A stretch of 64,000 nucleotides of DNA from Mixophyes australis (taxonomy: Eukaryota > Chordata > Amphibia > Anura > Limnodynastidae): positions 70,696,505-70,760,504 of the forward strand of contig JAVHZZ010000005.1 in the NCBI GenBank assembly GCA_036250195.1. Direction: 5' to 3'. Position numbers and translations under genes: made by a program. Positions 15,869 to 59,783 of this stretch are shown one piece after another (position 1 is the first letter of the stretch; each line of letters opens with the position of its first letter). Under the pieces are notes generated by a model. The model was not told the DNA's origin and searched no databases. It worked only from the letters and a program-made list of their open reading frames with translations.

Positions 15869-16199
15869 ACATTGCCAATAGAAAATAATTTTCAGAAGTC
15901 TGGGTTTACAGGAAATTGTGTAATGATAGTGTCATGGTTTGTTTTACAATTTAGATGGATTTACCTTCTAAGGAGTCATCAGCCTCTTGACTACAGACTA
16001 CTGGTAGAAAAAAGTATAATAGAATAGATAGATGTCGCCTATTATATATAACTCTGTGTACTAACTCCAGCTCAGAAAGTCTGACATCCATGATTATACA
16101 ACCAAAAAATATAATTGGGGCTCAAACAATTGTAGCAATGTGGAGTCAATGTGACCGAAACAAACAAAACAAAAAACAAAAACAAAACAAGGAGTCCTG

Positions 16200-16374
16200 G
16201 GGTTAGATTTACTAAGCTGCGGGTTTGAAAAAGTAGGGATGTTGCCTATAGCAACCAATCAGATTCTAACTTTCATTTATTTAGTACTTTCTACAAAATG
16301 ACAGCTAGAATCTGATTGGTTGCTATAGGCAACATCCCCACTTTTTCAAACCCGCAGCTTAGTAAATCTAGCCC
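16200..16374. mobile_element. 175-bp Harbinger-like fold-back MITE, family 1 copy 1
   Basis: Almost the whole element is an inverted repeat: GGGTTAGATTTACTAAGC at the left and its match TTAGTAAATCTAGCCC at the right. Arms run through AGCAACCAATCAGATTCTA to a short centre. CTG flanks both ends (16197-16199 and 16375-16377), consistent with a 3-bp target duplication of PIF/Harbinger type. It sits in the presumed intron of the minus-strand Myb-like pseudogene. Confidence 0.88.
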
Positions 16375-16528
16375 CTGATCTTGAAGTGTGGTTATAACCA
16401 CCTGATTGTCCGATATATAATCGAAAAATGTGTCATTAAAAAATATGTTGCAAGCTTCTGCTTTCAATGATGCAGGATTATTAGTTGCACATAAAGGGAT
16501 AACATTTTAAATACAATGCATTACTCAC

Positions 16529-24064: not shown

Positions 24065-24860
24065 TGTTAGGGATCGCGGCCGCCGCGACTCTTCCGGGTT
24101 CTCTGGGGACGCCCCGTCTGTTGCTACGGCAACCGGGGCGTCACTTCCGGTTTCAGCATCCCGGTTGCCTGGGCAACAACCGGGACGCAGGGGAGCTTTG
24201 GCGCAGCGCCCGACCAGCTGTCAAACAGCCGGGCGCATGCGCATAGGGAAAGTATGAGACAGCCATGCAAGGCTGTTATAGATCAGTAATCAGGGTTGAT
24301 TAGAAACTTAGTTTGCCGCTGGCACACTGCCTTTTCCATTGGCTGCAGGCTCTGCAGTTTTATTATGTTGCAGCTGAGGACATTATGGGCTGTGTTCTGA
24401 TTGGCCATCAGCACTATTTAAGGCAGTGAGGACTGAACCTCACTCCTGGTTATAGCGTTCTGCCCTCAGTCCTGCTGCCTGCTTGGGCTATCTGTTTGGT
24501 TCTTGCTACCTTGGATTGACTACCCGTGTTTTGACCCCTGCTTGTTTTTGGACCTGTGAACCTTCTCTTCTGACCTCGACCTTTTTGCCTGGATTCCGGA
24601 TTTTGCTTCTTTGCCTGTGTGTCTGACCCTTCGCTTGTCTCTGGATATTGCATCTGTGCTTGTGACCTTTGACCTAGGATACTTCTTAACAACAGCCCGC
24701 CAATCACTCCACTCCTGGGTACTCCTTTAAGTCAGTATACGTTACTGGACCCTCGGTCGGCCCGCAGCCCAGTCTGTCCCCACCACTAGGGGCTCCAGCG
24801 AACACCGGGCCTTCAGAGTAGTCCCCGAGTTTCACTGTACTGGCTTGGGAGTTCCTAACA
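24065..24860 (+). repeat. 5' LTR of element A
   Basis: Begins TGTTAGGGATCGCGG and ends GTTCCTAACA. U3 begins with a very CpG-rich block containing a NotI-type GCGGCCGC. Inverted CCAAT motifs (ATTGG) lie near 24338 and 24400 and a CTATTTAAGG box at 24413-24422. I predict the transcript start near 24448, which would make U3 about 383 bp. No AATAAA was noticed in the LTR. Confidence 0.95.
24400..24454 (+). promoter_or_regulatory. Core promoter of element A and predicted transcript start
   Basis: ATTGG (inverted CCAAT) at 24400 and the TATA-like CTATTTAAGG at 24413 precede GGTTATA at 24448-24454. The start is placed at about 24448 by the usual 25-35 bp spacing and by complementarity of GGTTATA to the bases just after the LTR. 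Confidence 0.55.
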
Positions 24861-24861
24861 T

Positions 24862-24868
24862 TATAACC
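24862..24868 (+). promoter_or_regulatory. Putative self-primer binding site of element A
   Basis: TATAACC starts one base after the LTR end and is the exact complement of GGTTATA at 24448-24454, the predicted 5' end of the RNA. No TGG-initial sequence matching a tRNA 3' end lies at the normal position. In Tf1 the RNA's own 5' end primes reverse transcription; the same arrangement is inferred here. Confidence 0.6.
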
Positions 24869-24896
24869 GGCCAAGGAAGATTGGTATCATAAGGCC

Positions 24897-25769
24897 ATGG
24901 ACAGCGAGGAGTCGAATCTGTCCCCAGCCCAGATTCTGGCAAATCAGATACAGGCAATTTCCCAAGTGGTTCAGAATTTATCCCAGCGTCTGGTAGTCCA
25001 AAAAGGGGCTTCCAGAGACCTGCAGCTCCAGCAAGTCCCCGCTGGAGACACACCGGAGCCTAAGATGAACTTGCCTGACCGATTCTCTGGAAGCAGGTCA
25101 GCCTTCCGTAATTTCAAAGAGAGCTGCAAGTTGTACTTTCATCTGAAACCACGTTCCTCTGGTTCTGAACAACAAAGGGTAGGGATCATCATCTCTTTAC
25201 TCCAGGGTGACCCTCAGTCTTGGGCCTTCTCCTTGCCTTCAACAAGCCCAGCCTTGCAGTCCGTGGATGCCTTTTTCCAAGCTCTGGGGTTATTGTACGA
25301 TGACCCAGACAGGGTAGCCTCAGCTGAGTCTCATCTCCGAACGCTAAGGCAAGGACGTCACTCCGCGGAAGAGTATTGTGCGGAATTTCGGCGATGGTCC
25401 ACTGATAGTGCCTGGAACGATCCAGCATTGCGAAGTCAATTTCGCTTAGGACTTACCGAGCAGATTAAGGATTCCTTAGTCCAGTATCCGATATCCGACA
25501 CACTGGAGAAGTTGATGCAACTCGTTATAAAAATTGATCGTCAGATCAGAGAAAGGAAGACTGAACGGGAGTCCTCTGCTCCTATGGACGTTTTCGCTAG
25601 CTTCGATAACAATTTGCCCGATTCCTCTGAACCCATGCAGTTGGACGCTTACCGCTTGCCTCCGGAGGAACGCTCCAGAAGACGCTCACTAGGCCTGTGT
25701 ATGTATTGTGGTCAACCAGGCCACTTAGTTCGTTCATGTCCCAACAAACCGGGAAACTCCAAAGCCTAA
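24897..25769 (+). CDS. Gag polyprotein of element A
   Basis: 290 codons, start at the first ATG of the leader (36 nt after the LTR). It encodes the structural protein that forms the retrotransposon particle. After a short N-terminal helix (IQAISQVVQNLSQRLV) come the capsid-like core motifs FSGSRSAFRNFKESCKLYF and FRLGLTEQIKDSLVQYPISD. A CX2CX4HX4C zinc knuckle (CMYCGQPGHLVRSC, 25698-25739) precedes the stop. This layout is that of sushi-class Gag, the ancestor of domesticated mammalian PEG10/RTL proteins. The frame is open from end to end. It overlaps pol, which lies in the -1 frame; GGGAAAC at 25751-25757 is in the correct phase for slippage. Confidence 0.92.
   Translation: MDSEESNLSPAQILANQIQAISQVVQNLSQRLVVQKGASRDLQLQQVPAGDTPEPKMNLPDRFSGSRSAFRNFKESCKLYFHLKPRSSGSEQQRVGIIISLLQGDPQSWAFSLPSTSPALQSVDAFFQALGLLYDDPDRVASAESHLRTLRQGRHSAEEYCAEFRRWSTDSAWNDPALRSQFRLGLTEQIKDSLVQYPISDTLEKLMQLVIKIDRQIRERKTERESSAPMDVFASFDNNLPDSSEPMQLDAYRLPPEERSRRRSLGLCMYCGQPGHLVRSCPNKPGNSKA
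25751..25757 (+). promoter_or_regulatory. -1 frameshift slippery site, element A gag/pol
   Basis: G GGA AAC in the gag phase, five codons before and including the gag region that ends at 25769. The pol frame is -1 relative to gag. GGGAAAC is the heptamer known from the sushi-derived PEG10 gene. A downstream structure was not tested. Confidence 0.8.
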
Positions 25770-26803
25770 GTGCAGGTGAAGAGGTGCGCTTGGGTCTTCA
25801 GATTACCTCTTCAGAAAATTCTTTATTAGTCCCTGGACGTCTAACTTTCCGTGGGAGATCCATGGACCTGAAAGCTTTTCTTGACAGTGGTGTGGCTGGT
25901 AATTTCCTGGATATACATTTGGCTCAGACGCTTGATATTCCGCATATCAAGTTAGGATCAAGCATCACCACGTGTGGTTTGGATGGTAACCCCTTGCCTG
26001 GGGGGAGGATTCTCGCTAGGACTCCAATGGTTCGGTTGTCTGTAGGAGACCCCCATACGGAGGAACTCTCCTTCTATCTTATTACTTGTCCCTCTGCTCC
26101 TTTGATATTGAGGTATCCCTGGCTTCGCAGTCATAATCCCCTTATTGACTGGAAAAGTGGAGAGATTATTCGTTGGAGTTCCGAGTGTTCCACGTCTTGC
26201 TTGACCCTGCCGATTAGAATCCTACAGCCTAGTCCAGACTTTTTGCCGGTACCCTACCAGGACTTCACTGATGTGTTCTGCAAAAAGAAAGCTGATTCCC
26301 TTCCACCACATCGAGAATATGACTGCGCCTTTGATTTAGTCCCGGGTTCCAAGTTGCCCAAAGGGCGGTTATACTCCTTGTCCATTCTGGAGACTCAGGT
26401 CATGGAGCTATACGTAGAGGAAAACCTGAAAAAGGGATTCATACATCCTTCTAAATCTCCCGTAGGCGCAGGTTGCTTTTTCGTGTCAAAAAAAGAAGTC
26501 TTAGACCGTGCATTGATTTCCGTGGACTGAATAACATCACTATTAAGAATATGCACCCGTTACCGTTGATTTCGGTGTTGTTTGATCAATTAAAATCTGC
26601 CACTATATTTTCGAAGATTGACCTCAGAGGGGCTTACAATCTTATTCGAATCAAGAAAGGGGATGAGTGGAAGACCGCTTTCAATACCCAGTCGGGACAT
26701 TATGAATATCTCGTGATGCCATTCGAGTTATGCAACGCTCTGGCGGTTTTCCAGGACCTGATCAACGATGTTTTACGAGAGTTTCTGGGTAAAACAGTAG
26801 TTG
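25758..26803 (+). pseudogene. Element A pol, N-terminal half: protease and start of reverse transcriptase
   Basis: The -1 frame after the slippery site encodes an aspartic protease with FLDSGVAGNFLD (catalytic Asp-Ser-Gly), then the pre-RT region with PPHREYDCAFDLVPGS and [12 protein letters not shown]. Near 26495 the frame shifts, consistent with net loss of one base modulo three where related elements have KKDGSLRP. The other frame continues [17 protein letters not shown] and ends in the fingers/palm motif [20 protein letters not shown]. Canonical Gly and Pro of MPFGLCNAPAVFQ are changed to Glu and Leu. The half gene stops at 26803 where element B was inserted, just before the catalytic YLDD codons. 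Confidence 0.88.
26799..26803. other. Target-site duplication of element B (left)
   Basis: AGTTG, repeated at 34114-34118. Confidence 0.92.
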
Positions 26804-26947
26804 TGTCACTCACCGGACCGTGAGTGCCTCTTCTTCTGTTATTAGGAACCGTGGCCGTCCGCCATCCTGATGGTCTGCGCATGCGCAGCCTCTATGAACC
26901 CTTCAGACCTGTTGCTTTTAGTTAATTGGTTGATCAGGCAACACTCC

Positions 26948-26989
26948 CTATTTAAAGCACCTGTGGTCATTACCTCGTTGCCTGTTCTT
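26948..26989 (+). promoter_or_regulatory. Core promoter of element B and predicted transcript start
   Basis: TATA-like CTATTTAAAG at 26948 lies 32 bp before GCCTGTTCTT (26980-26989). That decamer is the exact complement of the sequence two bases after the LTR end, which supports a start at about 26980. Confidence 0.6.
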
Positions 26990-27014
26990 GGAGTCTCATT
27001 CCCTGTGAGTCTCT

Positions 27015-27420
27015 GAAGGTGTTCCTGTGTTTCTCCTCGTGTCTTCAGTTCCAGCTGATTCCTCACTTTTGCATTGTCGGTTTCCAGACCGCTTCAACTC
27101 TCCTGTGTTTCATCGTGTCTTCAGTTCTAGCTGATTCCTGACTATTGCATTACCGGTTCCCAGACCGCTTCAACTCTCCTGTGTTTCATCGTGTCTTCAG
27201 TCCCAGCTGATTCCTGACTATTGCATTACGGGTTCCCAGACCGCTTCAACTCTCCTGTGTTTCATCGTGTCTTCAGTCCCAGCTGATTCCTGACTATTGC
27301 ATTGCCGGTTTCCAGACCGCTTCAACTCTCCTGTGTTTCATCGTGTCTTCAGCCCCAGCTGATTCCTGACTATTGCATTGCCGGTTTCCAGACCGCTTCA
27401 ACTCTCCTGTGTTTCATTGT
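27015..27420 (+). repeat. 76-bp tandem array in the 5' LTR of B (five units)
   Basis: GCTTCAACTCTCCTGTGTTT recurs at 27091, 27167, 27243, 27319 and 27395, an exact 76-bp period. The 3' LTR has four units, which accounts exactly for the 76-bp length difference between the LTRs. Confidence 0.95.
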
Positions 27421-27875
27421 GTCTTCAGTTCCTGCTGATTTCTGCAAGAATCATCATTGCTCCACTCGTGTCAAGTTCTCTGCCTGTGTGCTACACAGAC
27501 ACGGATTACCGCTACCACTCTCCTGTGGTCTCTACTCGTGTCGGCGTTCAGCCGCTCAGCTATCCCTGTGTTTCTCTCGCGACAGCCTGCTCAACTGAAT
27601 CGCGGTATGCTTACCTTCTATTGACTTTACTAGTTTATTGCATATCCGCTTGGACTGTGTCCTGCTCATCTACGGAGTCCTCTATCTTAAGAAGATATAG
27701 ATGCTATTGACTTTGTCTCTTTTGACCTGGATCTCAGTAGTGACTTTGTATCTCTCAAGCAGCGCTTGTCATTTGCTATTGTATTGTTTATACCATTTGG
27801 AATCAAGTTCCTTGTGCTCTCTGTGTTACCTTCTATGTTCCACTCATCTACACTAGTGCCTATCCTCACTTATAG

Positions 27876-28144
27876 CAGTGGTACAACTTGCTGAACGCAG
27901 ACCACTGACTCCCAGTTTCCTATTGGCACCAGTTACAAGTTTCCTCACTATAAGCAGTGGTACAACTTGCTGTACGCAGACCACTGACTTCCCTAGTACC
28001 TACTTGCACCTGGAACCAGTCCCATCACTACAAGCAGTGGTACAACTTGCTGTACGCAGACCACTGACTTCACTACCTCCTATCTATTCCTGGACAACTC
28101 CTCTCACTATAGCAGTGGTACAACTTGCTGTACGCAGACCACTG
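27876..28144 (+). repeat. Four hairpin repeats in the 5' LTR of B
   Basis: Four 32-bp units (27876, 27955, 28035, 28113) start CAGTGGTACAACTTGC and end ACCACTG. Outer arms CAGTGGT/ACCACTG and inner arms GTACA/TGTAC can both pair. The first unit has AAC where the others have TAC. The spacers between units are unrelated in sequence, so the hairpin core is the conserved part. Confidence 0.88.
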
Positions 28145-28370
28145 ACTTTCCTCACGTCTTCACGTCCATCAAGATCCTCGTGTTCATATTGTCTAATCCA
28201 TAACCAGTTGCTGCTAGTCATAGACTTTCCTTTAGCATCCTCTCACCATCTGCTGATTCTTCTATTCTGCTAGTCACCCTACTATCAGAGGACCACTGTG
28301 TGTATACACTACTCTGGTAAGACTACATCTGGTGATATCCTGGGCAAAGACTCCTAGTGCCCGTGACAGT

Positions 28371-28380
28371 AAGAACAGGC
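28371..28380 (+). promoter_or_regulatory. Putative self-primer binding site of element B
   Basis: AAGAACAGGC, two bases after the LTR end, is a perfect 10-base complement of GCCTGTTCTT at 26980-26989. No tRNA-type TGG primer site is present. The gag ATG follows one base later. Confidence 0.72.
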
Positions 28381-28381
28381 C

Positions 28382-29314
28382 ATGACAGACCCAGGATCGG
28401 AACCATCAGCTAAAGAGATGCTGCAGTATCTGGTTACCCGAATTGAACAACAGGATGTTCGCCAACAATAGTTGCTGCAATGTTATCAGACTTTAGCCTC
28501 CCAAGGAACTTCTGTGCAAAATACCGCAGCCACTGTTGATACTCCTGTGTCATCACCTGTTTCCCCAGTGCCATCCCAGGTGTCTACTGCTTCCACGATA
28601 CACCTGCCTACTCCTTCAAAATATGATGGAGACCCCAAAACATGTAGTGGTCTTCTGAATCAATGCTCTGTCCATTTTGAGCTTCAACCTCACAATTTCT
28701 CTACTCATCGTTCCAGAGTGGCCTATCTCATCTCCTTGTTTTCCGGACAGGCTCTTGCATGGGCTTCCCCTCTGTGGGAAAGAAATTATCCATTGTTACA
28801 AGATAGTGCCAAATTTATTTCCATGTTTCGAAGTGTATTTGATGAACCTGGTCGTGTTATCTCTGCCGCATCCAGCATCCTCCGTCTACCGCAAGGATCT
28901 CGCACTGTAGCTCAGTACGTCATTCAATTTCGGATACTAGCCTCTGAACTTCAGTGGAACACTGAAGCCTTGATTGACTCCTTCTGGCTGGGGCTTTCGG
29001 ATAAAATTAAAGATGCACTGACCTCACAAGAATTACCCTCTTCCTTGGAGGATTTGATTTCTCTTTGCCATCGTGTGGACATGAGATTTCGTGAGAGAGA
29101 TTCTGAAAAAACAAATTCCTATAAAGCACCTCTTCGCTCAGGACCTCAAGTTCGTTAAGCTCCATCTCCAGTAGTACCTATGGAGATAGGTCGCTCCAAA
29201 TTAACTTTAGAGGAAAGAGACCGAAGAGTAAAAAATAGACTTTGTATCTATTGTGCTGATTCTACTCACATGCTCAACTCATGTCCTAAAAAGTCGGGAA
29301 ATGCCAGGCCCTAA
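28382..29314 (+). pseudogene. Gag of element B with two nonsense codons
   Basis: Starts MTDPGSEPSAKEMLQYLVTR at the first ATG after the LTR. A TAG interrupts it at 28469-28471, where the context (QQDVRQQ then LLQCYQ) suggests a lost Gln codon. The frame then runs through the capsid-like core (FEVYL is not in this frame; the true core has KFISMFRSVFDEPGRVISAA and FWLGLSDKIKDALTSQELPS). A TAA at 29156-29158 breaks it again. Past it, the same frame keeps a zinc knuckle CIYCADSTHMLNSC (29243-29284, CX2CX4HX4C) and ends at 29312-29314. The frame before, between and after the stops is otherwise intact, so both mutations look recent. Confidence 0.88.
29296..29302 (+). promoter_or_regulatory. -1 frameshift slippery site, element B gag/pol
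   Basis: G GGA AAT in gag phase, four codons before the gag terminator; pol is open in the -1 frame from this point. It corresponds in position to GGGAAAC of element A. Confidence 0.7.
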
Positions 29315-32300
29315 CCAGTTATGGAGAGGTGAAGTTAGGGTTCCTGGAGTCCTCTCCAAGTTCCACGAAATTAAAAGTTTGTGCTTTTGATGTTACCGTT
29401 TCCTTTGCTACCAAATCCTTTGTGTCTCAAGCACTTATTGATTGTGGAGCTGCAGGAAATTTTATTTCTAAATCCCTCATGAACCAATGGTCCCTACCAG
29501 TGGTTTCTTTAAAGGTACCTATTACCGTTACTGCTATCGATGGATCACATATTATTAATGGTCTCATTACTCAGAGTACGTCTCTAATAACTCTTCAAAT
29601 TGGAGCCTTACATCAGGAAAAAATGTCATTCCTAATTCTTCCTGTTACTACCAGTCCTATTGTTCTAGGCCTTCCATGGCTTCAACTGCATTCTCCTCAG
29701 ATTGACTGGAACACTCCTCAAGTTACGTCTTGGGGGCCTGAGTGTCATCATCGTTGCCTTACTCAAGTTGTTCCACTCAAGATGCAGCAATCCTCCATTT
29801 CACCGTGTCCACCGGGTCTTCCTCCTCAGTATGCTTCCTTTGCCAATGTATTTGATAAGCTTCAGTCTGAACGTCTTCCTCCTCACCGTTCTTGGGACTG
29901 TCCGATTGATCTTCAACCCGGCAGGACTCCTCCTAGGGGTCGTGTGTATCCACTTTCTTTACCGGAGACTCAAGCTACATCTGAGTATATCAAAGAGTAT
30001 ATCCAACGAGAATTTATTGGACCTTCTTCCTCTCCCGCTGGAGCCGGATTCTTCTTCGTGAAAAAGAAGGATGGGTCATTACGTCCTTGTATTGATTTTC
30101 GTGGTCTCAACGCCATTACCATCAAAAATCGGTATCCCATTCCATTAATTACTGAGCTTTTTGATCGTATCAAGGGAGCCCGGATCTATACCAAGTTGGA
30201 TCTCCGTGGTGCTTATAATTTAATTCGAATCAGGTCCGGTGACGAATGGAAGACAGCTTTTAACACCAGAGATGGGCATTATGAGTATTTAGTTATGCCC
30301 TTCGGGTTGTGTAACGCCCCCGCTGTTTTCCAGGGTTTCATTAATGAGATCTTCCGGGACTTGTTATATGTTTGTGTCGTCGTCTATCTGGACGACATAT
30401 TAATCTTTTCTCAGGACCTGCCTTCTCATCATCAACACGTGGCAGAAGTCCTTTCCAGACTCCGAAGAAATTCGTTATTCTGCAAGTTAGAAAAATGTTC
30501 ATTCGAGTTGCCCCAGATTCCATTTCTGGGATATATTGTCTCCGGAGTCGGTCCTCAGATGGATCCAGAAAAGGTGTATGCTGTATTACATTGGCCTCAA
30601 CCAACTACTCTTCGTGCAATTCAGCGTTTTTTAGGTTTTGCTAATTATTACAGACGCTTCATCCAAGATTTTTCCTCGATTGCATCTCCTATTGTGGCCC
30701 TAACCCGTAAAGGGGCTAATACTAAACTATGGTCCTCCGAGGCCCTTCAAGCTTTTCAGTTTCTCAAAGAGTCCTTTTCCTCCGCTCCTGTTCTTCGACA
30801 GCATGATGTGACGCTTCCCTTCTTCCTAGAGGTAGACGCCTCTAATGTTGGCTTAGGAGCCATTCTATCCCAAAGATCGGAGCAACAAAAATTTCATCCT
30901 TGTGCCTTTTACTCTCGGGGCCTTCTACCTGCAGAGAAGAATTATACCATCGGGGACAAGGAGTTGCTGGCTATAAAAGCAGCATTAGAGGAGTGGAGAT
31001 ATTTGTTGGAGGGAGCTCGCCATCCTGTGACAATTTTTACAGATCATAAAAATTTGTCATATTTACAGTCTGCTCAATGTTTGAATCCTGGTCAAGCAAG
31101 ATGGTCTCTTTTCTTTTCTCGTTTTGAACTCATTATAACCTTCAAACCAGCTGCTAAAAATAAAAAAGCAGACGCCCTATCTCGGGCATTCGTGACGTCC
31201 TCAGACGTTGAGTATGGTCCTAACCACTCAATATTAGATCCCAAATGTGTTTCTCTGGCCGCTTCTTCCACTAAGGTGCTACCATTTGGGAAAACTCTCG
31301 TGCCTCCATCCCTTAGGAAGAAAATCCTGTCGTGGTTTCATTCTTCATGTTTTTCTGGACATGCTGGTGAACGCAAGACTTTCGAAATTCTTTCTCGTAG
31401 TTACTGGTGGCCCTCCATGAGGAAAGTTGTCAAAGATTTTGTGGCTGTCTGTGAATTGTGTTCCCAGTTCAAGACTTCCCGCAGAACACCGGCGGGTCTA
31501 CTTCAACCACTACCCATTCCTTCCAAGCCTTGGACCCATATTAGTATGGACTTTGTTACTGATCTTCCTCCTAGTAAAAAGTGTAATACAATTTGGGTAG
31601 TGGTAGATAGATTTTCGAAGATGGCACATTTTGTTCCTTTGACCAGTTTACCTTCTTCATCTACCCTGGCTGATCATTTCATTAAAGAGAATTTCTGTAT
31701 TTATGGATGTCCTTCAGAGATCGTTTCAGATAGAGGGGTGCAGTTTGTTTCCAGATTCTGGCGAGCCCTTTGTAAGACCTTGGGTATTCGATTATCACTC
31801 TCATCTTCCTACCATCCTCAATCAAACGGACAGACCGAGAGGGTCAATCAAGATCTTGAGACTTTCATAAGGATGTTCTCTTCAGCCAACCAAGATAACT
31901 GGCTAGATTTGCTTCCATGGGCTGAATTCGCCCATAACAACATGTATCATGAGTCATCTTCTAAAACTCCATTTTTTGTGGTTTACGGTCACCATCCTTC
32001 TTTTCCGGAATTTCCTGCCCTCCCGCCCACCCAAGTTCCTGCTGTAGAGACTGTTTGTCAGACCTTCAAAAATATTTGGTCTCAGGTCAAAACCTGTTTA
32101 AAGAAGACATCTGCCAGATATAAGTCCTTTGCAGATAAAAAGAGACGGGCTATTCCACCACTTAAAATTGGAGATCGTGTATGGCTATCAACCAAAAATA
32201 TTCGTTTGAAGGTCCCATCTATGAAGTTCGCTCCTCGTTTTATTGGTCCACATAGGATCATTCAAGTGATAAACCCAGTTTGTTTCAAACTTCTACTACC

Positions 32301-32691
32301 TAAGAACCTTCGTATTTCCAATGCCTTCCATGTGTCATTGCTCAAACCTCTCATACTCAACCGTTTCTCTGCTCCTCCTTCAGCACCTCGGCCAGTTCAA
32401 GCTCTTCAAGAGGAGGACTTTGAGATCACACATATATTAGATGCAAAAATTTTGCGAGGTGTTCTTCGTTTCCTCGTTCATTGGAAGGGCTTTGGCCCTG
32501 AAGAACATTCATGGATTAGGGCTGAGGATCTCAACGCCCCAGCTCTTCTAAAAAAGTTCTATTCCAAATTTCCGGGCAAACCCGGTTCCATGTCTTCTGT
32601 GCCCACCTTTAAAAGGGGGGGTACTGTCAGTCACCGGACCATGAGTGCCTCTTCTTCTGTTATTAGGAACCGTGGCCGTCCGCCATCCTGA
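29296..32691 (+). CDS. Pol polyprotein of element B (protease, RT, RNase H, integrase, chromodomain)
   Basis: One open frame with no internal stop, entered by -1 frameshifting; the first possible non-ATG start often chosen by software (GTG, 29329) is not meaningful. Counting from 29329: protease IDCGAAGNFI with catalytic Asp38 (Cys replaces the usual Ser/Thr), and RT with [25 protein letters not shown] and YLDD at 353-356. RNase H follows with EVDASNVGLGAIL, then an integrase zinc finger (His671, Cys708, Cys711) and catalytic triad Asp741, Asp801, Glu837 with 59- and 35-residue spacing. A chromodomain spans about 1034-1085 (FLVHWKGFGPEEHSW). Such chromodomains guide integration to modified histones in other chromoviruses. 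The stop lies 67 bases inside the 3' LTR. The pol could be functional, but the gag of the same copy is broken. Confidence 0.93.
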   Translation, partial: GKCQALTSYGEVKLGFLESSPSSTKLKVCAFDVTVSFATKSFVSQALIDCGAAGNFISKSLMNQWSLPVVSLKVPITVTAIDGSHIINGLITQSTSLITLQIGALHQEKMSFLILPVTTSPIVLGLPWLQLHSPQIDWNTPQVTSWGPECHHRCLTQVVPLKMQQSSISPCPPGLPPQYASFANVFDKLQSERLPPHRSWDCPIDLQPGRTPPRGRVYPLSLPETQATSEYIKEYIQREFIGPSSSPAGAGFFFVKKKDGSLRPCIDFRGLNAITIKNRYPIPLITELFDRIKGARIYTKLDLRGAYNLIRIRSGDEWKTAFNTRDGHYEYLVMPFGLCNAPAVFQGFINEIFRDLLYVCVVVYLDDILIFSQDLPSHHQHVAEVLSRLRRNSLFCKLEKCSFELPQIPFLGYIVSGVGPQMDPEKVYAVLHWPQPTTLRAIQRFLGFANYYRRFIQDFSSIASPIVALTRKGANTKLWSSEALQAFQFLKESFSSAPVLRQHDVTLPFFLEVDASNVGLGAILSQRSEQQKFHPCAFYSRGLLPAEKNYTIGDKELLAIKAALEEWRYLLEGARHPVTIFTDHKNLSYLQSAQCLNPGQARWSLFFSRFELIITFKPAAKNKKADALSRAFVTSSDVEYGPNHSILDPKCVSLAASSTKVLPFGKTLVPPSLRKKILSWFHSSCFSGHAGERKTFEILSRSYWWPSMRKVVKDFVAVCELCSQFKTSRRTPAGLLQPLPIPSKPWTHISMDFVTDLPPSKKCNTIWVVVDRFSKMAHFVPLTSLPSSSTLADHFIKENFCIYGCPSEIVSDRGVQFVSRFWRALCKTLGIRLSLSSSYHPQSNGQTERVNQDLETFIRMFSSANQDNWLDLLPWAEFAHNNMYHESSSKTPFFVVYGHHPSFPEFPALPPTQVPAVETVCQTFKNIWSQVKTCLKKTSARYKSFADKKRRAIPPLKIGDRVWLSTKNIRLKVPSMKFAPRFIGPHRIIQVINPVCFKLLLPKNLRISNAFHVSLLKPLILNRFSAPPSAPRPVQALQEEDFEITHILDAKILRGVLRFLVHWKGFGPEEHSWIRAEDLNAPALLKKFYSKFPGKPGSMSSVPTFKRGGTVSHRTMSASSSVIRNRGRPPS
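32606..32624 (+). promoter_or_regulatory. Polypurine tract of element B
   Basis: AAAAGGGGGGGTAC immediately before the 3' LTR. It would prime plus-strand DNA synthesis. Confidence 0.8.
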
Positions 32692-34113
32692 TGGTCTGCG
32701 CATGCGCAGCCTCTATGAACCCTTCAGGCCTGTTGCTTTTAGTTAATTGGCTGATCAGGCAACACTCCCTATTTAAAGCACCTGTGGTCATTACCTCGTT
32801 GCCTGTTCTTGGAGTCTCATTCCCTGTGAGTCTCTGAAGGTGTTCCTGTGTTTCTCCTCGTGTCTTCAGTTCCAGCTGATTCCTCACTATTGCATTGCCG
32901 GTTTCCAGACCGCTTCAACTCTCCTGTGTTTCATCATGTCTTCAGTACCAGCTGATTCCTGACTATTGCATTGCCGGTTTCCAGACCGCTTCAACTCTCC
33001 TGTGTTTCATCGTGTCTTCAGTTCCAGCTGATTCCTGACTATTGCATTGCCGGTTCCCAGACCGCTTCAACTCTCCTGTGTTTCATCGTGTCTTCAGTCC
33101 CAGCTAATTCCTGACAATTGCATTGCCGGTTTCCAGACCGCTTCAACTCTCCTGTGTTTCATCGTGTCTTCAGTTCCTGCTGATTTCTGCAAGAATCATC
33201 ATTGCTCCACTCGTGTCAAGTTCTCTGCCTGTGTGCTACACAGACACGGATTACCGCTACCACTCTCCTGTGGTCTCTACTCGTGTCGGCGTTCAGCCGC
33301 TCAGCTATCCCTGTGTTTCTCTCGTGACAGCCTGCTCAACTGAATCACGGTATGCTTATCTTCTATTGACTTTACTAGTTTATTGCATATCCGCTTGGAC
33401 TGTGTCCTGCTCATCTACGGAGTCCTCTATCTTAAGAAGATATAGATGCTATTGACTTTGTCTCTTTTGACCTGGATCTCAGTAGTGACTTTGTATCTCT
33501 CAAGCAGCGCTTGTCATTTGCTATTGTATTGTATATACCATTTGGAATCAAGTTCCTTGTGCTCTCCGTGTTACCTTCTATGTTCCACTCATCTACACTA
33601 GTGCCTATCCTCACCTATAGCAGTGGTACAACTTGCTGAACGCAGACCACTGACTCCCAGTTTCCTATTGGCACCAGTTACAAGTTTCCTCACTATAAGC
33701 AGTGGTACAACTTGCTGTACGCAGACCACTGACTTCCCCAGTACCTACTTGCACCTGGAACCAGTCCCATCACTACAAGCAGTGGTACAACTTGCTGTAT
33801 GCAGACCACTGACTTCACTACCTCCTATCTATTCCTGGACAACTCCTCTCACTATAGCAGTGGTACAACTTGCTGTACGCAGACCACTGACTTTCCTCAC
33901 GTCTTCACGTCCATCAAGATCCACGTGTTCATATTGTCTAATCCATAACCAGTTGCTGCTAGTCATAGACTTTCCTTTAGCATCATCTCACCATCTGCTG
34001 ATTCTTCTATTCCGCTAGTCACCCTACTATCAGAGGACCACTGTGTGTATACACTACTCTGATAAGACTACATCTGGTGATATCCTGGGCAAAGACTCCT
34101 AGTGCCCGTGACA
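32625..34113 (+). repeat. 3' LTR of element B
   Basis: 1489 bp, starting TGTCAGTCACC. It has four 76-bp units (GCTTCAACTC at 32912, 32988, 33064, 33140) instead of five, and the four hairpin repeats at 33621-33889. The predicted transcript start GCCTGTTCTT is at 32801-32810. Confidence 0.95.
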
Positions 34114-34118
34114 AGTTG
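34114..34118. other. Target-site duplication of element B (right)
   Basis: AGTTG, matching 26799-26803. Confidence 0.92.
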
Positions 34119-36466
34119 TATATCTGGATGATATTTTAATCTACTCTGAGTCTTTACTTCAGCACCATCAGCATGTTCGCCAAGTTCTGTTGAAATTACG
34201 GTAACATCACCTATATGCAAAAAGGGAGAAATGCGAATTCGAGGTGGCCACAGTGTCATTCCTGGGATATATCATCTCCTCATCAGGATTCGCAATGGAC
34301 CCTGCCAAAGTTCGAGCAATCCAGGATTGGGTCATCCCTACTAATATGAAAGCGATCCAGAGGTTCCTCGGATTTGAAAATTATTACCGTAGGTTTATTG
34401 ATTCTTTTTCCTCAGTGGCTCCTATCACTGCCCTCACTCGAAAGGGAGCTAACCCAGCAAAGTGGCCTTCGGAGGCATTGGCGAGTTTCTCGGCACTCAA
34501 AGCTGCTTTCATTTCTGCTCCAGTGCTGAGACATCCTGATCTGGAACTTCCGTTCATTGTAGAGATGGACGCTTCAGATATCGGTGCTGGCGCCATCCTT
34601 TCTCAGAAAGACCCAAGGAGCAAAAAGTTACATCCTTGTGCATTTTTTTCTAAAAAATTTATATTTGCCGAATGTAATTATGATGTCGGCAATCGTGAAT
34701 TGTTGGCCATTAAGTTGGCACTGGAGGAATGGCGACATTGGTTAGAGGGAGCTATTCATACCATCACCATCTTCACAGTTCATAAAAACATCCAATACAT
34801 CCAGACCGCTAAAACCCTGAATCCTAGGCAGGCCCGCTGGGCCTTATTTTTCACCAGATTTAAGTTCATTATTACATTCCGTCCAGGTTCTAAAAATACT
34901 AAGGCCGATTCCTTGTCCCGAAGTTTTTTGGCCCATCATCCTCAGTCTCCTGACCCGTTGACTATTGTTCCTACAACTACTGTTCATCTTGGACTCACCC
35001 AGGATCTAGGAGCAACTATCTGGCACTTCCAGAGAATCGCTCCAGTTCAGACACTGGTCAACAAATTATTTGTCCCAGTACATTTAAGGAAATCTGTTCT
35101 CATTGAAGGCCACAACAACCGCTCTGCTGGCCATCCGGGAATTCGTAGGACTATTGAGGTTCTTTCTCGTTGGCTCTGGTGGCCCACCTTGTCAGATGAT
35201 GTGGAGAATTATGTTCGGGCTTGTACTGAGTGTGCTAAAAACAAACCGGATAAGAACCGTCCTTCTGGGCAATTGTTACCCTTGCCGGCGCCGAGCAGGC
35301 CTTGGACCCATTTGTCGATGGATTTCATTGTCGATCTACCAGTATCCGCAGGACATAACACCATCCTGGTAGTTGTGGATCGGTTCAGTAAGATGGCACA
35401 TTTTATATCATTGCCCAAGTTACCGGATGCCAGGACCTTGGCCACCTTGTTTTTGACGCATATTTTTTGTCTTCATGGGACTCCTGAAGATATCGTATCA
35501 GATCGAGGATCCCAGCTTATTGCCCGGTTTTGGAAAGCCTTTTGTAATTCCATCGGGATCTCTATCAGTTTGTCCTCAGCGTATCATCCCCAGTCGAATG
35601 GACAGACAGAGAGGACGAACCAAGCTCTGGAACAGTTTCTGCGCATCTATGTGTCTAAATTCCACGATAATTGGTCCTCTCTTTTGCCCTGGGCAGAATT
35701 TGCGTACAATAATTCTTGCCATTCCACTATTCATACATTCCCGTTTTTCTGCAACTTAGGGTTTCACCCAAAATCCAACTCATTCTCTACTACTGTTTCC
35801 TACGGGGATTCCGGAACGCTTGCTTTTACGGCCAGGCTAAGGTCCGTCTGGAAAAAGGTGCACGCTGCACTAGGTCAAGCTTCCCGAAAATCCAAGTTCT
35901 TCGCTGACCGTCACCGTAGACTCTGTTCATTGAAAGTGGGGGATCAGGTTTGGTTATCCACACGGAACATCAAGTTGTGGCAACCTTGTAGGAAGCTGGG
36001 GCCCCAATACATTGGACCATTTCCAATTGAGAGGAAAATTAATCCAGTGGCATTTAGATTAAAACTACCCACTTCCTTAAAAATACCTGCGACCTTTCAT
36101 TGTTCGCTTCTGAAGAAAGTCGCTGCTCCCAGCAAGTTTAATCGGTCTCTCTCTAACAGGCCCAGGCCTCTGATGGTGAACGGAGAACATGAATATTTTG
36201 TCGAAAGAATCCTTGACTCAAGGAAAGTTCAAGGTCAAGTTCAATTTCTCGTATATTGGAAGGGTTATGGCCCTGAGGAGCGATCTTGGATACCGCAGAA
36301 GCGTCTCCACGCTGAGAAACTCCTTAGGGAATTTTTTAAGAAGTTTCCTTCTAAACCTGGAAGTCGGGGTTCCTTGACCCCTCCTCAAGGGGGGGTACTG
36401 TTATGGATCGCGGCCGCCGCGACTCTTCCGGGTTCTCTGGGGATGCCCCATCTGTTGCTACGGTAA
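34118..36466 (+). pseudogene. Element A pol, C-terminal half: RT palm to chromodomain
   Basis: The frame resumes at YLDDILIYS directly after element B, in the phase of the left half once one duplication copy is discounted. TAA at 34202-34204 interrupts RT where related proteins have Gln before the HLYAKxEKCEFE motif. From 34205 the frame is open to 36466. It holds the RT thumb (SFLGYIIS), RNase H (VEMDASDIGAGAILSQ) and an integrase zinc finger (HNNRSAGHPGIRRTIE...CTEC). The catalytic triad codons are Asp 35321, Asp 35501 and Glu 35609 (59- and 35-residue spacing). A chromodomain (FLVYWKGYGPEERSW, about 36230) and a tail that runs 68 bases into the 3' LTR follow. Integrase and chromodomain look intact; RT does not. 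Confidence 0.92.
36386..36398 (+). promoter_or_regulatory. Polypurine tract of element A
   Basis: AAGGGGGGGTAC immediately before the 3' LTR, closely like that of element B. Confidence 0.8.
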
Positions 36467-37194
36467 CTGGGGCGTCACTTCCGGTTTCAGCATCCCGGTT
36501 GCCTGGGCAACAACCGGGACGCAGGGGAGCTTTGGCGCAGCGCCCGGCCAGCTGTCAAACAGCCGGGCGCATGCGCATAGGGAAAGTATGAGACAGCCAT
36601 GCAAGGCTGTTATAGATCAGTAATCAGGGTTGATTAGAAACTTAGTTTGCCGCTGGCACACTGCCTTTTCCATTGGCTGCAGGCTCTGCAGTTTTATTAT
36701 GTTGCAGCTGAGGACATTATGGGCTGTGTTCTGATTGGCCATCAGTACTATTTAAGGCAGTGAGGACTGAACCTCACTCCTGGTTATAGCGTTCTGCCCT
36801 CAGTCCTGCTGCCTGCTTGGGCTATCTGTTTGGTTCTTGCTACCTTGGATTGACTACCCGTGTTTAAACCCCTGCTTGTTTTTGGACCTGTGAACCTTCT
36901 CTTCTGACCTCGACCTTTCTGCCTGGATTCCGGATTTTGCTTCTTTGCCTGTGTGTCTGACCCTTCGCTTGTCTCTGGATATTGCATCTGTGCTTGTGAC
37001 CTTTGACCTAGGATACTTCTTAACAACAGCCCGCCAATCACTCCACTCCTGGGTACTCCTTTAAATCAGTATACGTTACTCGACCCTCGGTCGGCCCGCA
37101 TCCTAGTCTGTCCCCACCACCAGGGGCTCCAGCGAACACCGGGCCTTCAGAGTAGTCCCCGAGTTTCACTGTACTGGCTTGGGAGTTCCTAACA
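36399..37194 (+). repeat. 3' LTR of element A
   Basis: 796 bp, starting TGTTATGGATCGCGG and ending GTTCCTAACA. Differs from the 5' LTR at about 15 positions by my reading, several at CpG sites (for example GACGCC/GATGCC and CCCCGT/CCCCAT). Confidence 0.95.
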
Positions 37195-37199: not shown

Positions 37200-38714
37200 T
37201 TTACTAAAACTTATCAATGGTTATTCGAAGCAGAAATAACAGCCAGATTCCTACTCTGAAACCCATAAACAGTTACAGTGTCTATAAGACACTAATGTTA
37301 CCAGTACTACATTGGAAAAAGGCTAAAAAGTTGGCGATCCAATATAATTGCTCATAGAGACACCATATGGGATATTCTAGAACTACAAAAACATCTACCA
37401 ACAGTGTATTCATATGCATTCAGTGTATTCACCTACCGTAACATACTGTGACATAAGAGATCAAAACCATTTAGACTATATCTGTAGTTTGAGTGTTTTC
37501 TATTATAATATGGTCTACGTTAAAAAGGATTATTTTAAGTGGTTTAGCAATGCCCTAAAAATCATTCATACTTATATTTTCAAGACTATGTATCAGAATT
37601 CTAAAATTCATAGTTACATCATATTATGAATATTAAAATAAATTTTGCACAACAGAATTGTACTAAGACTTCATGCTTGATTTACCTGCTACCAGAAATT
37701 TGCCAATTTCTGCCCCTGTCTGGTCTCTTTTATCACTGTTGTAGAGATAAAGATGTAATAGAGTTTCATACTAAATCCTCACATATTCAGGTCTGATCTC
37801 TAGAAAACCATAACAAGCTAATGCTTAGTATGGTTCATATTAAATTTATGTTAACATGCTGCAGGTATGATGACTTTGTCAGCAACAATTTATGTTTCTG
37901 AAACTGAACACTTAAATAGCATTTTGGTATATTGGGTTTTCTATGATAATAATGAAAGTTTAGTATCTGAACATTGCAAATTTCATGTTTTTTCTTAACA
38001 TGTTTACTAAATGCATTGCTGAATATTCATACAAATTCCTTTGTATGAAAATAAAAAATCAAATTAAAATAAGTTAAACATTGATAATAAAAGGGTGATT
38101 CTGCTGTACAAGGATTATTAAACATTTTTTGCTGTTGCAATAAAATACACTTATTATATGCCAAGAACAGGAGAGTAAATGTCATTAAGAGAGAAGGGAT
38201 AGAAAATATAACTGATTGTTGATGACAGACATTTTTCAAGGATGAAAATTAAACTCTAAATCATTTTTAAGTGATAGATATCTTATTTATATCTTATATG
38301 ACTAAACGGCAATGCTAAACGGGGAATATTCACTCCCCTGCCATAATATTATTTTTTTGCTAGTTCCTTTTGAGCATGGCAGAACCACAGGTATGAAAAA
38401 AAGATTTTTGGGCCTGCGCATGAAGTTTATGTCCCTTACCCACTGGTGTTAAAAATCATGCTATTACTAATATTTTCAGCACTTGTAAGAGCAGGTAAAC
38501 GGATATGGGCATGATAACTATAGGATCCAATGGCCCGTAACCCACTTGTGCTCTTGTCTGCAGTCAGCCAGTGGTGTGGCAGTATCTTTTGGACACTGAA
38601 TGCTACATTTACTTGTGGTTACTAATATAAATGCTAGAGGTCATTGAGGTGTCCTCCACTGAAATGCCCGACCACTGTTTACCATTGCATATCAATCGTG
38701 AAAGTGTTTGACAT
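37200..38714. other. Flanking DNA, nothing recognised
   Basis: About 1.5 kb of AT-rich DNA without recognised genes or repeats. Confidence 0.45.
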
Positions 38715-38717
38715 TTG

Positions 38718-38892
38718 GGGCTGTATTTACTAAGCTGCGGGTTTGAAAAAGTGGGGATGTTGCCTATAGCAACCAATTAGCTTCTATCTGTCATTTTGTA
38801 GAAGGTACTAAATAAATGACAGGTAGAATCTGATTGGTTGCTATAGGCAACATCCCCACTTTTTCAAACCCGCAGCTTAGTAAATCTAGCCC
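38718..38892. mobile_element. 175-bp Harbinger-like fold-back MITE, family 1 copy 3
   Basis: Starts GGGCTGTATTTACTAAGC and ends TTAGTAAATCTAGCCC, with arms almost fully complementary. TTG flanks both sides (38715-38717 and 38893-38895). Same length as copies 1 and 4. Confidence 0.9.
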
Positions 38893-38895
38893 TTG

Positions 38896-40027
38896 GTGTC
38901 ACTGGCATTTTCTTAATGCCAGTGTGTAACCTGTCTGGAATAAAGTGGTAGATTTAGAGCTCTTATTTTGGAAATTGAAAACTTGTACATTGGTTGCATA
39001 TGAGCAATGCTCAATTCATAAAATATACTTCTTTTCATTTCTGTTGCTCGATGTTGTTGTATATTTGTTTTTAAAACCTGTCCCCACTATTCCTTTTATT
39101 TCAGTTCCACAAATGATGTACTATATATTGTTTATGTCTTGGATATGACCACAAGATAGTAAAAAATGTAGAGATACTAACTTGATTTATCCATAAATGC
39201 AGAAATTTGGCTGCCCAATTTGGTAAGTTTAGACCAAATTGGGACCCTATATGTGGCCAATGGCCATCAATCACAATCAATATCTGATTAGGATCAATGA
39301 GATGTTGATCAGGAAAATTTAGTTGGTCAATGACCATGCTCTGCTAGTGTGTGTGGGCAATGGTAGACTACATTTATTTGGCTCTGGAGGAATTATCTTT
39401 TCAATCTGTTCAATTTTCCTGCTTTAGTCGTTTGGAGGTCTGGCTGAGCGTTCTGAATTCTGAAAGCTGGAATAAGTCTCATGAATAAAACATGTGATTG
39501 AGACAGAAAAGGCAAGTAGTGCACACAATAAATGATAGCAATGATTGGCTGCTAAAGATTATACTGGCTGTCCTAGACCTGTGAAAGGGTAACTATGAAA
39601 ACTAGAATAGTAGGAATAGTAGTATGTATAAAATGATTTCAATACACAAAATGCATACAGAAGGCTCACACCGAGATAACATAGGGAATAAGTCCAAAAG
39701 TGTCCAATAAAGAGTTTCTATATCATGAAAAAGTCACTAATAAAGTCTAAGTGGTTTTTCTCACATGTTCCTTCATCTGCATATTCTCATATGTCTCCAA
39801 ACGATAGTCATACAAAAAAGAAAGATAAAAAACTCATGTGTAGTAATATCAACACTAATACAATTCCTTGTCTTTACATCATCACCTTAAAAACCAAAAA
39901 AGTTAAGGTGAAGTGATGGAATAATAATAATACTAAACCACCTCGTGATGCACATTATACAAACAACGTGAAAATTAAGAATACGGGGCATCCGCCCCTT
40001 AAGCTGTGCGCACTCTATTGAAAACTG
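38896..40027. other. Unrecognised DNA
   Basis: No gene recognised. A repeat-like flavour around 39640-39950 could not be assigned. Confidence 0.35.
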
Positions 40028-43443: not shown

Positions 43444-43973
43444 TCTTCCATCTCCCTTCCCTATCTCCCCTTATTCCTTTCCTTACGTTCTTTCCCTCCC
43501 ATTCTGTTCCAGCTCTTAAGATACTATTTGTATTGATTATTTATCCTATGGCCAATTGGTCATGTGCTGTCCATAGTGTTTTATGTTGGTCATCCTATGT
43601 TGCCTCTTCTTTATCATAGCATGTTGAAGTTTATATGCTGTTGTTTCTACGTTACAATAAGCTGTTTGTTCAAATATGCTCTCACCTCCCTTTTCGTTGA
43701 TTGCTCCGGGAAGGCTCCCCGCTCTCCAATTCTTCTTTCTCAAAATTCACTGACTCTAGCTTCCCTACTTAAGCCATACAACCTGCCCGACTCCTGGCGA
43801 CTCAAAAATTCAACAACTAGAGACTGCACTCATTCCTCAGCACCCCATCAGGTGTACGCCCATATTAACATGCTTCATGTTTCTTACTCTTTCATGTCCC
43901 ACACAACCCAAGCGGGCATCACTCCATTTTCATGGATTGACCAGGTGGGAGTATACATCTTATTGGATCTTCG
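43444..43973 (+). repeat. Dispersed repeat R1, plus-orientation copy
   Basis: About 530 bp nearly identical to the reverse complement of 62030-62550. The 178-codon frame across it is partly shared by the other copy (an LKFICC...TISCLFKYALTSLFV block in both) but has no motif I know. It lies directly after the L1-like ORF1 remnant, so it could be LINE-derived. Confidence 0.8.
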
Positions 43974-44074
43974 GAAGCTCCACCTTATACTTCTCTCCCT
44001 TCTTCCCCCTCTTCTTCCCTTCTACCCTGCCCACTCTTTATTACTGATGTGTTCAAACTTTTCCCTCAAATGCC

Positions 44075-44430
44075 ACTTATTACAGTGGGAAACCGCTTAA
44101 TATACAATATATAGAATAATACAACAATTGTATTGAAGGAAAATATGCTAATGATTGGAAAATGTTGATTTATATCTTGTTTTCTCTAACTAAATGAAAA
44201 TATTCACCCCTCAATGGAATTATTGTGATAGTTATTTTTCATATGTAATGGCGGCAGATTTTACTGAAATAGGTGTGAGTTATGTTTTTGCATAAAACAA
44301 GACTACTTGGTGTCCTTTTTTGAGACATTTAAATATAAAGCCACGCAGCATTCTATTACCTTTCCTTATAATGATATGGCTGCTGGGAGATATTATTCTT
44401 TTTTATGCAGAAATAAAATAATTCAATGAA
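44075..44430 (+). repeat. Old diverged repeat, first copy
   Basis: Shares interrupted similarity with 46798-47160 in the same orientation, for example GAAAATAT(G/A)CTAAT, TCTTATTTTCTCT and ATTTAAATATAAAG. It is much more diverged than R1 or R2. Confidence 0.5.
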
Positions 44431-44860
44431 ATATTCTGGCAGCTACAAATATACCTATATTTTTTTACATAGGGAACCAAGTCTATTGCAACATATTCCA
44501 ATAAGAAACATGTTCAGAACTGTTAGTGAGTAGAAATGTTGGTTGCCCCCAAAAATGTAAACATCTAATAGCTCCTCTTTCATCTTCAGTATATGGCATC
44601 ACATCGGAAAGCTCATACATTAACCATGGCAAGTGGTGGTGGGTGATGTTGATTCAATGATTTCATATTCTTCAACTGGTTGTCAAAACACATACCATAT
44701 AGTTCTCCCAGAGCCCCAAGGAGAGCAGGTCTTTCTCCTGATCCATGGCCTCAATGACGTGAATTATGTCACTTTCTCTAAGCCCGCACTACTCTATGAT
44801 GTGATCCTGCCATTTTGCCATAGAGGCTGTGCCAAATCACGCTATTTTTATAAATCTGTT

Positions 44861-44925
44861 CCTTCCCTCTGCATCTGCTGCTTGCCCAGAGGGTTGGCTT
44901 GGAAAGTTGGTAAGTATGCCAAAAT
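44861..44925 (+). mobile_element. Partial hAT-like element end
   Basis: CTGCTTGCCCAGAGGGTTGG followed by GTTGGTAAGTATGCCAAAA. It matches the right half of the complete element at 45493-45613. Confidence 0.6.
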
Positions 44926-44941
44926 GTCTTTAGAACTAGGA

Positions 44942-45474
44942 AAGGACATTACCTTCTAGGTCTGGAGAAGTGGAATGATTTATTACCAAGCATACATTTT
45001 CAGTGCTTTTTTTTTAAACTGACAAAACTGCAGCAGTTATCAGAAAGACAGCAGTCACCATAAAAACAAAACAAAAAACAAAAGCAGCATTAAATTACTG
45101 GCAACAGAGATAACAGGGAAAAACAAAATACAGTTACAGAACATTAAAATACCATCAGTTCAGCCAATTCACAGGTTGATTGCTTCCTTAACTTGTTCTC
45201 TAGCAGCTCTCAGTCAGTTAAGTACATGTATGAGCAGAGAGAATATAGTCCTAAGTTCAGCTGACTAACAGATCAACTTTCAACTTGGAAATTCAAAGTA
45301 TTTAATTAAGGAAAGTAATATTTATTTTGTTCAAAAAAGAGCAAGCATAGTTGAGAATGTAGAATGATTTTATCTTGGTTTGCTAATATACACTTAAAAA
45401 ATGTACAACAATTAGCAAAACTTTCATGCAGTTTTCGGTGCCACATAACGAACGGGAACTAATAAGATTGGAAA
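44942..45474 (+). repeat. Dispersed repeat R2, plus-orientation copy
   Basis: About 530 bp matching the reverse complement of 63002-63514 closely. It runs from AAGGACATTACCTTCTAGG to GGGAACTAATAAGATTGG. There is no coding signal. It is bracketed by hAT-like TATGCCAAA ends on both sides. Confidence 0.8.
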
Positions 45475-58554: not shown

Positions 58555-59605
58555 AGGGGAAGGCTTATTTTCAAAAAGGATTTCTATTTCTTTCTTGGTG
58601 AAGTTTGGTTGTCATTTTTTCTCACTAACATATGTCCTGCTGATGGCTGGCTAAAAGCTGGTACCTGGCTGGTGGTCGCTGGATATATTGTCAAAAGGCT
58701 GGGTGCTGTGAGTTGAGACAAAATCATAGTCAGGGATTTAAGTCAAAAGGTGTATACCAGAGCTAGAAGTCAGCCAAGTAGGTACATGAGAGATTAGACA
58801 GGAAGAGTAGCTGGATTAAAACCATATGGTGCACATAAAATGACAAAGATGGCAGAAATTTTGTGCAGAAATTTATTGCAGACATTTGGTTTCAGTGTAA
58901 ATACAAACTCTACAGTGCAATAGCCGGATATATCTAAGTTTGCTTATGAATAATAAGGAAAAGTGCTTTATATATAAGTTAATAATAGTATCAGATATTT
59001 TCTACACTAGAAGCACAGAATGATTTGCTCATGTAGAAATATTCAACCCAATTGCTGCATTTGCTTCCAACTCTAAATCACATAAATCCAGCTTACTAAA
59101 CAGCTTCCAAAAATCTGCCATTCTGTTACATGCTTATTTCACGCAGGTGGAAAACATTGCTATACTTAGTACCTTTTGTATAATAACCCTTTAGAGACAG
59201 ACTTTGCATTTTGTAATTGGACATGTTCAAATTGTCTCTTTATAAGTATATTAACTCCTTCGCTGCTGAATCTTTTTCACCTTTCACCCCTTGTACTGAG
59301 CTTGTTTTAAAAATGTTGGGCTGATCACATTCCAGCATAATTAAGAGTTCTTTTTTTGTGTAGTATACACACAAACCATACCTTGTTTTTCAGAAATACC
59401 ATTGTCAACACTTGAAAATGATAAAGCAATGTTTTTTTTATTTGTTTGCTGTTTTGCGCTGTCTTGAATCAAATGCATAAGATGTGCAGGAATAATAATA
59501 TGGATAGCCCAACAAAGTATACAATTTGGAAAACACAACAACCTACTGACAACCTCTATCAAATTTGGCTGCACCCACTTATTTTGCAAACAGGGTCTTT
59601 GAGAT
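58555..59605. other. AT-rich DNA, nothing recognised
   Basis: No gene or recognised repeat. Confidence 0.4.
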
Positions 59606-59608
59606 TAG

Positions 59609-59783
59609 GGGCTAGATTTACTAAGCTGTGGGTTTGAAAAAGTAGGGATGTTGCCTATAGCAACCAATCAGAGTCTAGCTGTCATTTTGTAGAAGGTACT
59701 AAATAAATGAAAGCTAGAATCTGATTGGTTGCTATTGGCAATATCCCCACTTTTTCAAACCCGCAGCTTAGTAAATCTAGCCC
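59609..59783. mobile_element. 175-bp Harbinger-like fold-back MITE, family 1 copy 4
   Basis: GGGCTAGATTTACTAAGC at the left pairs with TTAGTAAATCTAGCCC at the right. TAG flanks both ends (59606-59608 and 59784-59786). Same length as copies 1 and 3. Confidence 0.9.

Follow-up and report, generated by a model that had tools for sequence, protein, structure and literature searches.

It was found that an LTR retrotransposon nested inside another one, here called element B, carries ten bases at the place where its RNA would begin that are the exact complement of ten bases lying just after its 5′ LTR. B is very probably a Tf1/sushi-type Ty3/gypsy chromovirus from an amphibian, and its own RNA would serve as the primer for reverse transcription. 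This reading was proposed in a first-pass annotation, and most of the sequence tests run here agree with it; free folding of the leader is the one that does not help. The evidence that speaks for self-priming is the recurrence of the signature at an equal TATA spacing in the surrounding element A, its presence with compensatory changes in six of 38 relatives, and the depletion of ATG in the leader. According to the available text of the papers cited below, self-priming itself is already published for Tf1/sushi chromoviruses, including vertebrate ones. What may be new in B is the distance of 1391 nt between primer and site, along with a repeat array that is one unit longer in the 5′ LTR than in the 3′ LTR.

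Two nested chromoviruses

The window (the whole 64-kb stretch of DNA that was analysed) contains two nested LTR retrotransposons, both with clean 5-bp target duplications. Element B lies inside element A (24065-37194). The insertion point is the RT region of A, and A's RT is present on both sides of B. The main features are as follows.

24065..24860, plus strand: 5′ LTR of A (3′ LTR at 36399-37194, target duplication ATATC)
26799..26803, no strand: left copy of the target duplication AGTTG of B (right copy at 34114-34118)
26804..28368, plus strand: 5′ LTR of B, 1565 bp, with TGTCAC...GTGACA ends, pairing with 32625-34113
27028..27407, plus strand: five units of a 76-bp tandem repeat in the leader of B
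28382..29158, plus strand: gag of B, its ATG one base after the primer-binding site
29329..32691, plus strand: pol of B, with protease, RT, RNase H, integrase, SH3_Tf2-1 and chromodomain
32625..34113, plus strand: 3′ LTR of B, 1489 bp

The LTRs of B are 98.05% identical outside 76 gap columns, with 29 substitutions, and those of A are 98.12% identical, with 15. The 76 columns are present in the 5′ LTR of B and missing from the 3′ LTR, and their number is the length of one 76-bp repeat unit. A second tandem array, with units of about 80 bp, lies at about 27831-28150 in the LTR of B. The gag gene is interrupted in the present copy by an in-frame stop at 28469. In pol, the domains RVP, RVT_1, RNase H, rve, SH3_Tf2-1 and Chromo follow each other in the Ty3/gypsy order with a C-terminal chromodomain. 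The Ty3/gypsy products of A, like those of B, include SH3_Tf2-1 and end in a chromodomain; the integrase pieces of the two elements share 51% identity. For the RT-RNase H piece of B, the two top-scoring proteins were one of Mixophyes fleayi (95% identical over 36% of the query) and one of Pseudophryne corroboree (71% identical over 70%). Both species are frogs, so that the host of B is very likely a frog as well. For sushi LTRs, the available text of PMC3601003 describes an AATAAA motif; neither AATAAA nor ATTAAA was found in the three LTRs searched (both of B and the 5′ LTR of A), which counts against the present reading of B.

The primer:site match in element B

The elements of the signature in B are these.

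26948..26957, plus strand: TATA-type box CTATTTAAAG, 32 nt from its first base to the primer
26980..26989, plus strand: proposed self-primer GCCTGTTCTT, which would be the first ten bases of the RNA and is the best LTR complement of the post-LTR site
28371..28380, plus strand: primer-binding site AAGAACAGGC, beginning two bases after the 5′ LTR

The complementarity between 26980-26989 and 28371-28380, with which the first-pass annotation began, was right in both coordinates and letters, and the observation is confirmed as real and exact. The placement of AAGAACAGGC two bases after the 5′ LTR agrees with the LTR as delimited here (26804-28368). The spacing of 32 bp from the box had to be qualified: it holds when counted from the first base of CTATTTAAAG, but the first T of the TATTTAA motif is 31 nt upstream of the primer. 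The primer and the site are separated by 1391 nt. The primer-binding site and the gag ATG nearly overlap (28371-28384), with one base between them.

Could such a match arise by chance? Ten bases are short and the window is long. Yet the plus strand of the 64-kb window has the complement of AAGAACAGGC in just two places, at 26980 and at the matching position of the 3′ LTR, 32801. When every 10-mer of the 5′ LTR was paired with six site offsets, GCCTGTTCTT:AAGAACAGGC was the best of 9330 pairings. In null tests limited to primers 28-36 nt after the box and sites 0-3 nt after the LTR, as good a match was found at none of 2169 other sites within the element and at one of 20000 random sites. The earlier judgement that chance is unlikely thus stands. 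Moreover, the match is the best among all LTR positions in A as well as in B, at an equal distance from the box, and the relatives show covariation. A coincidence in B is extremely improbable.

Since most LTR elements use tRNA primers, priming at or near 28369-28390 might come from a tRNA or from an internal tRNA fragment, with the ten-base match being incidental. Mature tRNAs end in CCA, and a site for a tRNA 3′ end therefore starts with TGG. No TGG start lies between 28342 and 28430 around the site of B, so that an ordinary 3′-end site is absent. No tRNA genes were found in the 64-kb window. Half-tRNA primers are described for some Ty1/copia groups in the available text of PMC6317226, and this speaks for the tRNA reading. 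Nevertheless, the self-match recurs in A and in six relatives, and tRNA priming of B is very improbable.

The signature in element A

The corresponding features of A are the following.

24414..24421, plus strand: TATA-type box CTATTTAA
24446..24455, plus strand: proposed self-primer CTGGTTATAG, spaced from its box as the primer of B is
24861..24870, plus strand: primer-binding site TTATAACCGG, directly after the 5′ LTR

The primer of A starts 32 nt past the first base of CTATTTAA, exactly the spacing of B. CTGGTTATAG and TTATAACCGG form eight Watson-Crick and two G.U pairs, a weaker pairing than that of B, and this is the best of 4716 pairings in A. As good a match was found at none of 1169 alternative sites, at 17 of 20000 random sites and, with the box distance fixed, at 31 of 200000 random sites. 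Since the letters of the A primer are unrelated to those of B, it is complementarity, not sequence, that the two elements have in common. Element A is an independent case of the putative self-primer signature in the window.

An ATG-poor leader

With an RNA start at 26980 and scanning as far as the gag ATG (28382), few ATGs are expected upstream of the latter. The leader so defined is:

26980..28381, plus strand: putative 1402-nt RNA leader of B

It contains three ATGs, where dinucleotide shuffles have 18.2 (none of 500 was as low), and CAT occurs in it 26 times. ATG is absent from all five 76-bp units; with both repeat arrays collapsed, two ATGs remain against 12.1 expected (0 of 1000 as low). 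The leader of A has none against 4.7 (1 of 500 as low). In contrast, U3 is not depleted in either element (three against 2.5 in B, five against 5.6 in A). The depletion supports an RNA that would begin near the proposed start and a leader that would be kept; it does not fix the first base.

Related elements

Is the signature found in related elements? With a 21-row RT alignment as query, 38 loci were retrieved from genome records of bacteria and archaea, on contigs that are presumably eukaryotic contaminants in bacterial genome bins. Searches of viral contigs with the RT piece of B, an alignment of the A and B integrases and the 21-row RT alignment gave no relatives, nor did a search of genome contigs with the integrase piece of B. 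For the strict signature, a 10-mer had to lie 28-36 nt downstream of a TATA box and be the exact complement of a site 0-3 nt from CA. It was found upstream of the RT in five of the 38 loci, against 53 of 7000 dinucleotide shuffles (200 for each of the 35 loci having at least 200 nt upstream). On whole forward strands, six of 38 loci have it, with L034 added to L002-L006, and on reverse strands one of 38 (L021).

In the six forward-strand cases, all matches are 11 nt long, the primer starts 32 nt after the TATA box in five and 34 nt in one, and the primer-to-site distance is 114-164 nt. Directly before the site stand TGACA and two bases, as in B; the LTR ends of the relatives were inferred from this motif, since no LTR pair delimits them. 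Domains rve, SH3_Tf2-1 and Chromo were found in all three signature loci scanned (L003, L004 and L034). At L034:2440-2850, the contig runs from a pol end through LTR-like sequence, in which the self-primer signature lies, to a gag start; this arrangement may reflect either a tandem element or an LTR collapsed in assembly.

When the six were aligned, 100% of the pairing in the 11 primer pairs was standard, and eight of the 11 are altered on both sides. An inner helix of seven pairs next to the LTR end is 92.9% paired; it is present in five of the six and fails in L006. With this helix included, 97.2% of the cells of the whole structure are paired, with ten two-sided changes against 2.8 in shuffles. 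These whole-structure scores were matched by none of 500 shuffles, and slid versions pair at 34-52%. Because L002, L003, L005 and L034 are close to each other, not every cell stands for an independent event, and the shuffling keeps this relatedness. Between L003 and L005, a two-sided change lies inside one primer pair. The two nested elements keep the complementarity with unrelated letters at an equal distance from the promoter, and the six relatives have compensatory changes, so that the mechanism may be readable from sequence alone.

In an RT tree of 35 rows, with no named Tf1 or sushi sequence among them, B falls in a 14-row clade (99/97) that includes all five signature loci of the tree. 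The tree left out L032, L033, L034 and L038, whose matches cover fewer than 200 query residues, and A, whose RT is interrupted by B. The signature rows do not form one clade and two changes are needed; some of the unlabelled rows (e.g. L001) have no leader on their contig. Absence from the other 32 loci is mostly uninformative, as not all of them need hold a 5′ LTR. Direct repeats of at least 60 bp lying more than 1500 bp apart were absent from 30 of the 38 loci; the contigs of L001, L010 and L012 start inside an ORF, and that of L007 apparently inside gag, as judged by eye.

L008 gave no signature in the strict scan. Two members of the 14-row clade were not counted as strict cases. In L009, nine of ten bases match, and the spacing from the TATA box, counted by eye, is about 44 nt. 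In L022, the LTR end is spanned by an inverted repeat of 10 bp or more, whose loop measures about 20 nt. The L022 repeat (L022:90-150) could be a self-primer whose leader is very short.

Extra duplexes and folding

In the available text of PMC10085805, Tf1 is described as forming a three-duplex "pretzel", composed of the primer:site duplex and two more between site-adjacent sequence and the part of the 5′ LTR downstream of the primer; the same is said to be possible for Tf2, Tj1, Tosmo1-3 and Tcry1. Candidates for two such duplexes were found in B.

26990..26996, plus strand: GGAGTCT directly after the primer, seven Watson-Crick pairs with AGACTCC at 28348-28354
28337..28344, plus strand: ATCCTGGG, U5 arm of the third duplex, eight Watson-Crick pairs with 28390-28397
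28348..28354, plus strand: AGACTCC in U5, partner of 26990-26996 in the second duplex
28390..28397, plus strand: CCCAGGAT, leader arm of the third duplex, whose stem encloses the primer-binding site

A run as long as the second duplex arose in 22 of 2000 mononucleotide shuffles, and one as long as the third in 30 of 2000. The corresponding stems of A are no better than chance (1504 and 505 of 2000 shuffles). The three candidate duplexes of B have ten, seven and eight Watson-Crick pairs; the primer:site pair is not predicted by folding. When the whole leader was folded freely, primer:site pairs had a probability of at most 0.005 each in both A and B, and forcing the pair costs 4.0 kcal/mol in A and 4.7 kcal/mol in B. 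For the five relatives folded (L002-L006), the probability is 0.57-1.0 per pair. Not all of the extra duplexes can nest with the primer:site pair in the folding program. Since folding misses the pair in A and B, such a long-range pair would need help from a protein, the extra duplexes or a second RNA.

That folding does not predict the long-range pair, together with the broken gag of the present copy, could also mean that self-priming was ancestral and has been lost in B, or that the leader is spliced or started elsewhere, leaving the match as a relic. But primer and site are intact, as are the two candidate duplexes, and those of their parts that lie in the LTR are unchanged in the 3′ LTR despite the 29 differences between the LTRs. 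The whole leader is also depleted in ATG. A relic is quite improbable, and a self-primer still in use remains the preferred reading.

Proposed mechanism and known systems

What I read directly are the sequences, their complementarity and position, and the recurrence and covariation in relatives; I infer where the RNA starts, that it is cut and extended, what the extra duplexes do, and whether one RNA pairs with itself or with a second packaged RNA. Transcription of B would start about 31 nt below the TATTTAA box, giving an RNA that begins with GCCUGUUCUU. Its 5′ bases would pair with AAGAACAGGC just after the 5′ LTR, and the duplexes 26990-26996:28348-28354 and 28337-28344:28390-28397 may help to hold primer and site together. 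The RNase H of the element would then cut behind the primer:site duplex, and the ten or eleven bases set free would prime minus-strand strong-stop DNA that runs into U5 and R.

The gap of 1.4 kb, bearing repeats and nearly free of ATG, and a pair that is unfavoured within one RNA raise the thought that priming may act between RNAs. The 5′ end of one RNA of the packaged dimer would prime the other, a variant of self-priming that I regard as unlikely for B. If it were true, a short leader would not be needed, and RNA dimerisation would be coupled to reverse transcription. B suggests that a leader of 1.4 kb, over eight times as long as those of the six relatives, is still compatible with the signature, and this makes the question of cis or trans pairing testable.

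A vertebrate Tf1/sushi group, with sushi-ichi and Amn-san, was reportedly described by Butler et al. in 2001. The first-pass annotation had placed the vertebrate sushi elements with Tf1; that they belong there and self-prime is already in print, as far as the available text goes (PMC10085805, PMC6317226). Self-priming is called a common feature of Tf1/sushi elements in the former, and the latter describes self-primers in the Tf1/Sushi group from yeast and vertebrates. For SM-Tcn1, a Tcn1-type relative of the group, the available text of PMC2864245 reports evidence of neither tRNA priming nor self-priming, which counts against a general rule for the group. Among the LTR element types of Silurana tropicalis, Amn-san, a vertebrate chromovirus, is given as the most abundant (PMC4131045, in its available text). 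No paper on self-priming in amphibian gypsy retrotransposons was found in the open-access collection searched, which does not show that none exists.

Compared by its description, Tf1 of Schizosaccharomyces pombe is, like B, a chromodomain Ty3/gypsy element, and the 5′ end of its RNA has its complement directly behind the 5′ LTR, as has the putative RNA 5′ end of B. B differs in its 1391-nt gap with tandem repeats, its unpredicted pairing and its vertebrate host. The vertebrate Tf1/sushi group shares with B a vertebrate host and the chromovirus type, and self-primers have been described in it (PMC6317226, in part). The six relatives have, like B, a primer 32-34 nt after the TATA box and TGACA plus two bases before the site. 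In contrast, their primers are 11 nt long and 114-164 nt from the site, against 10 nt and 1391 nt in B, and the inner helix present in five of them was not seen in B.

Other repeats in the window

A short interspersed element of about 190 bp was found in three copies (16186-16386, 38704-38901 and 59595-59791). Two are 82% and 92% like the reference copy, and inverted-repeat arms of about 88 bp give the element a MITE-like appearance. The regions 43444-45402 and 62030-63391 contain inverted segment pairs, 92-96% complementary and about 18 kb apart, which are two copies of another repeat.
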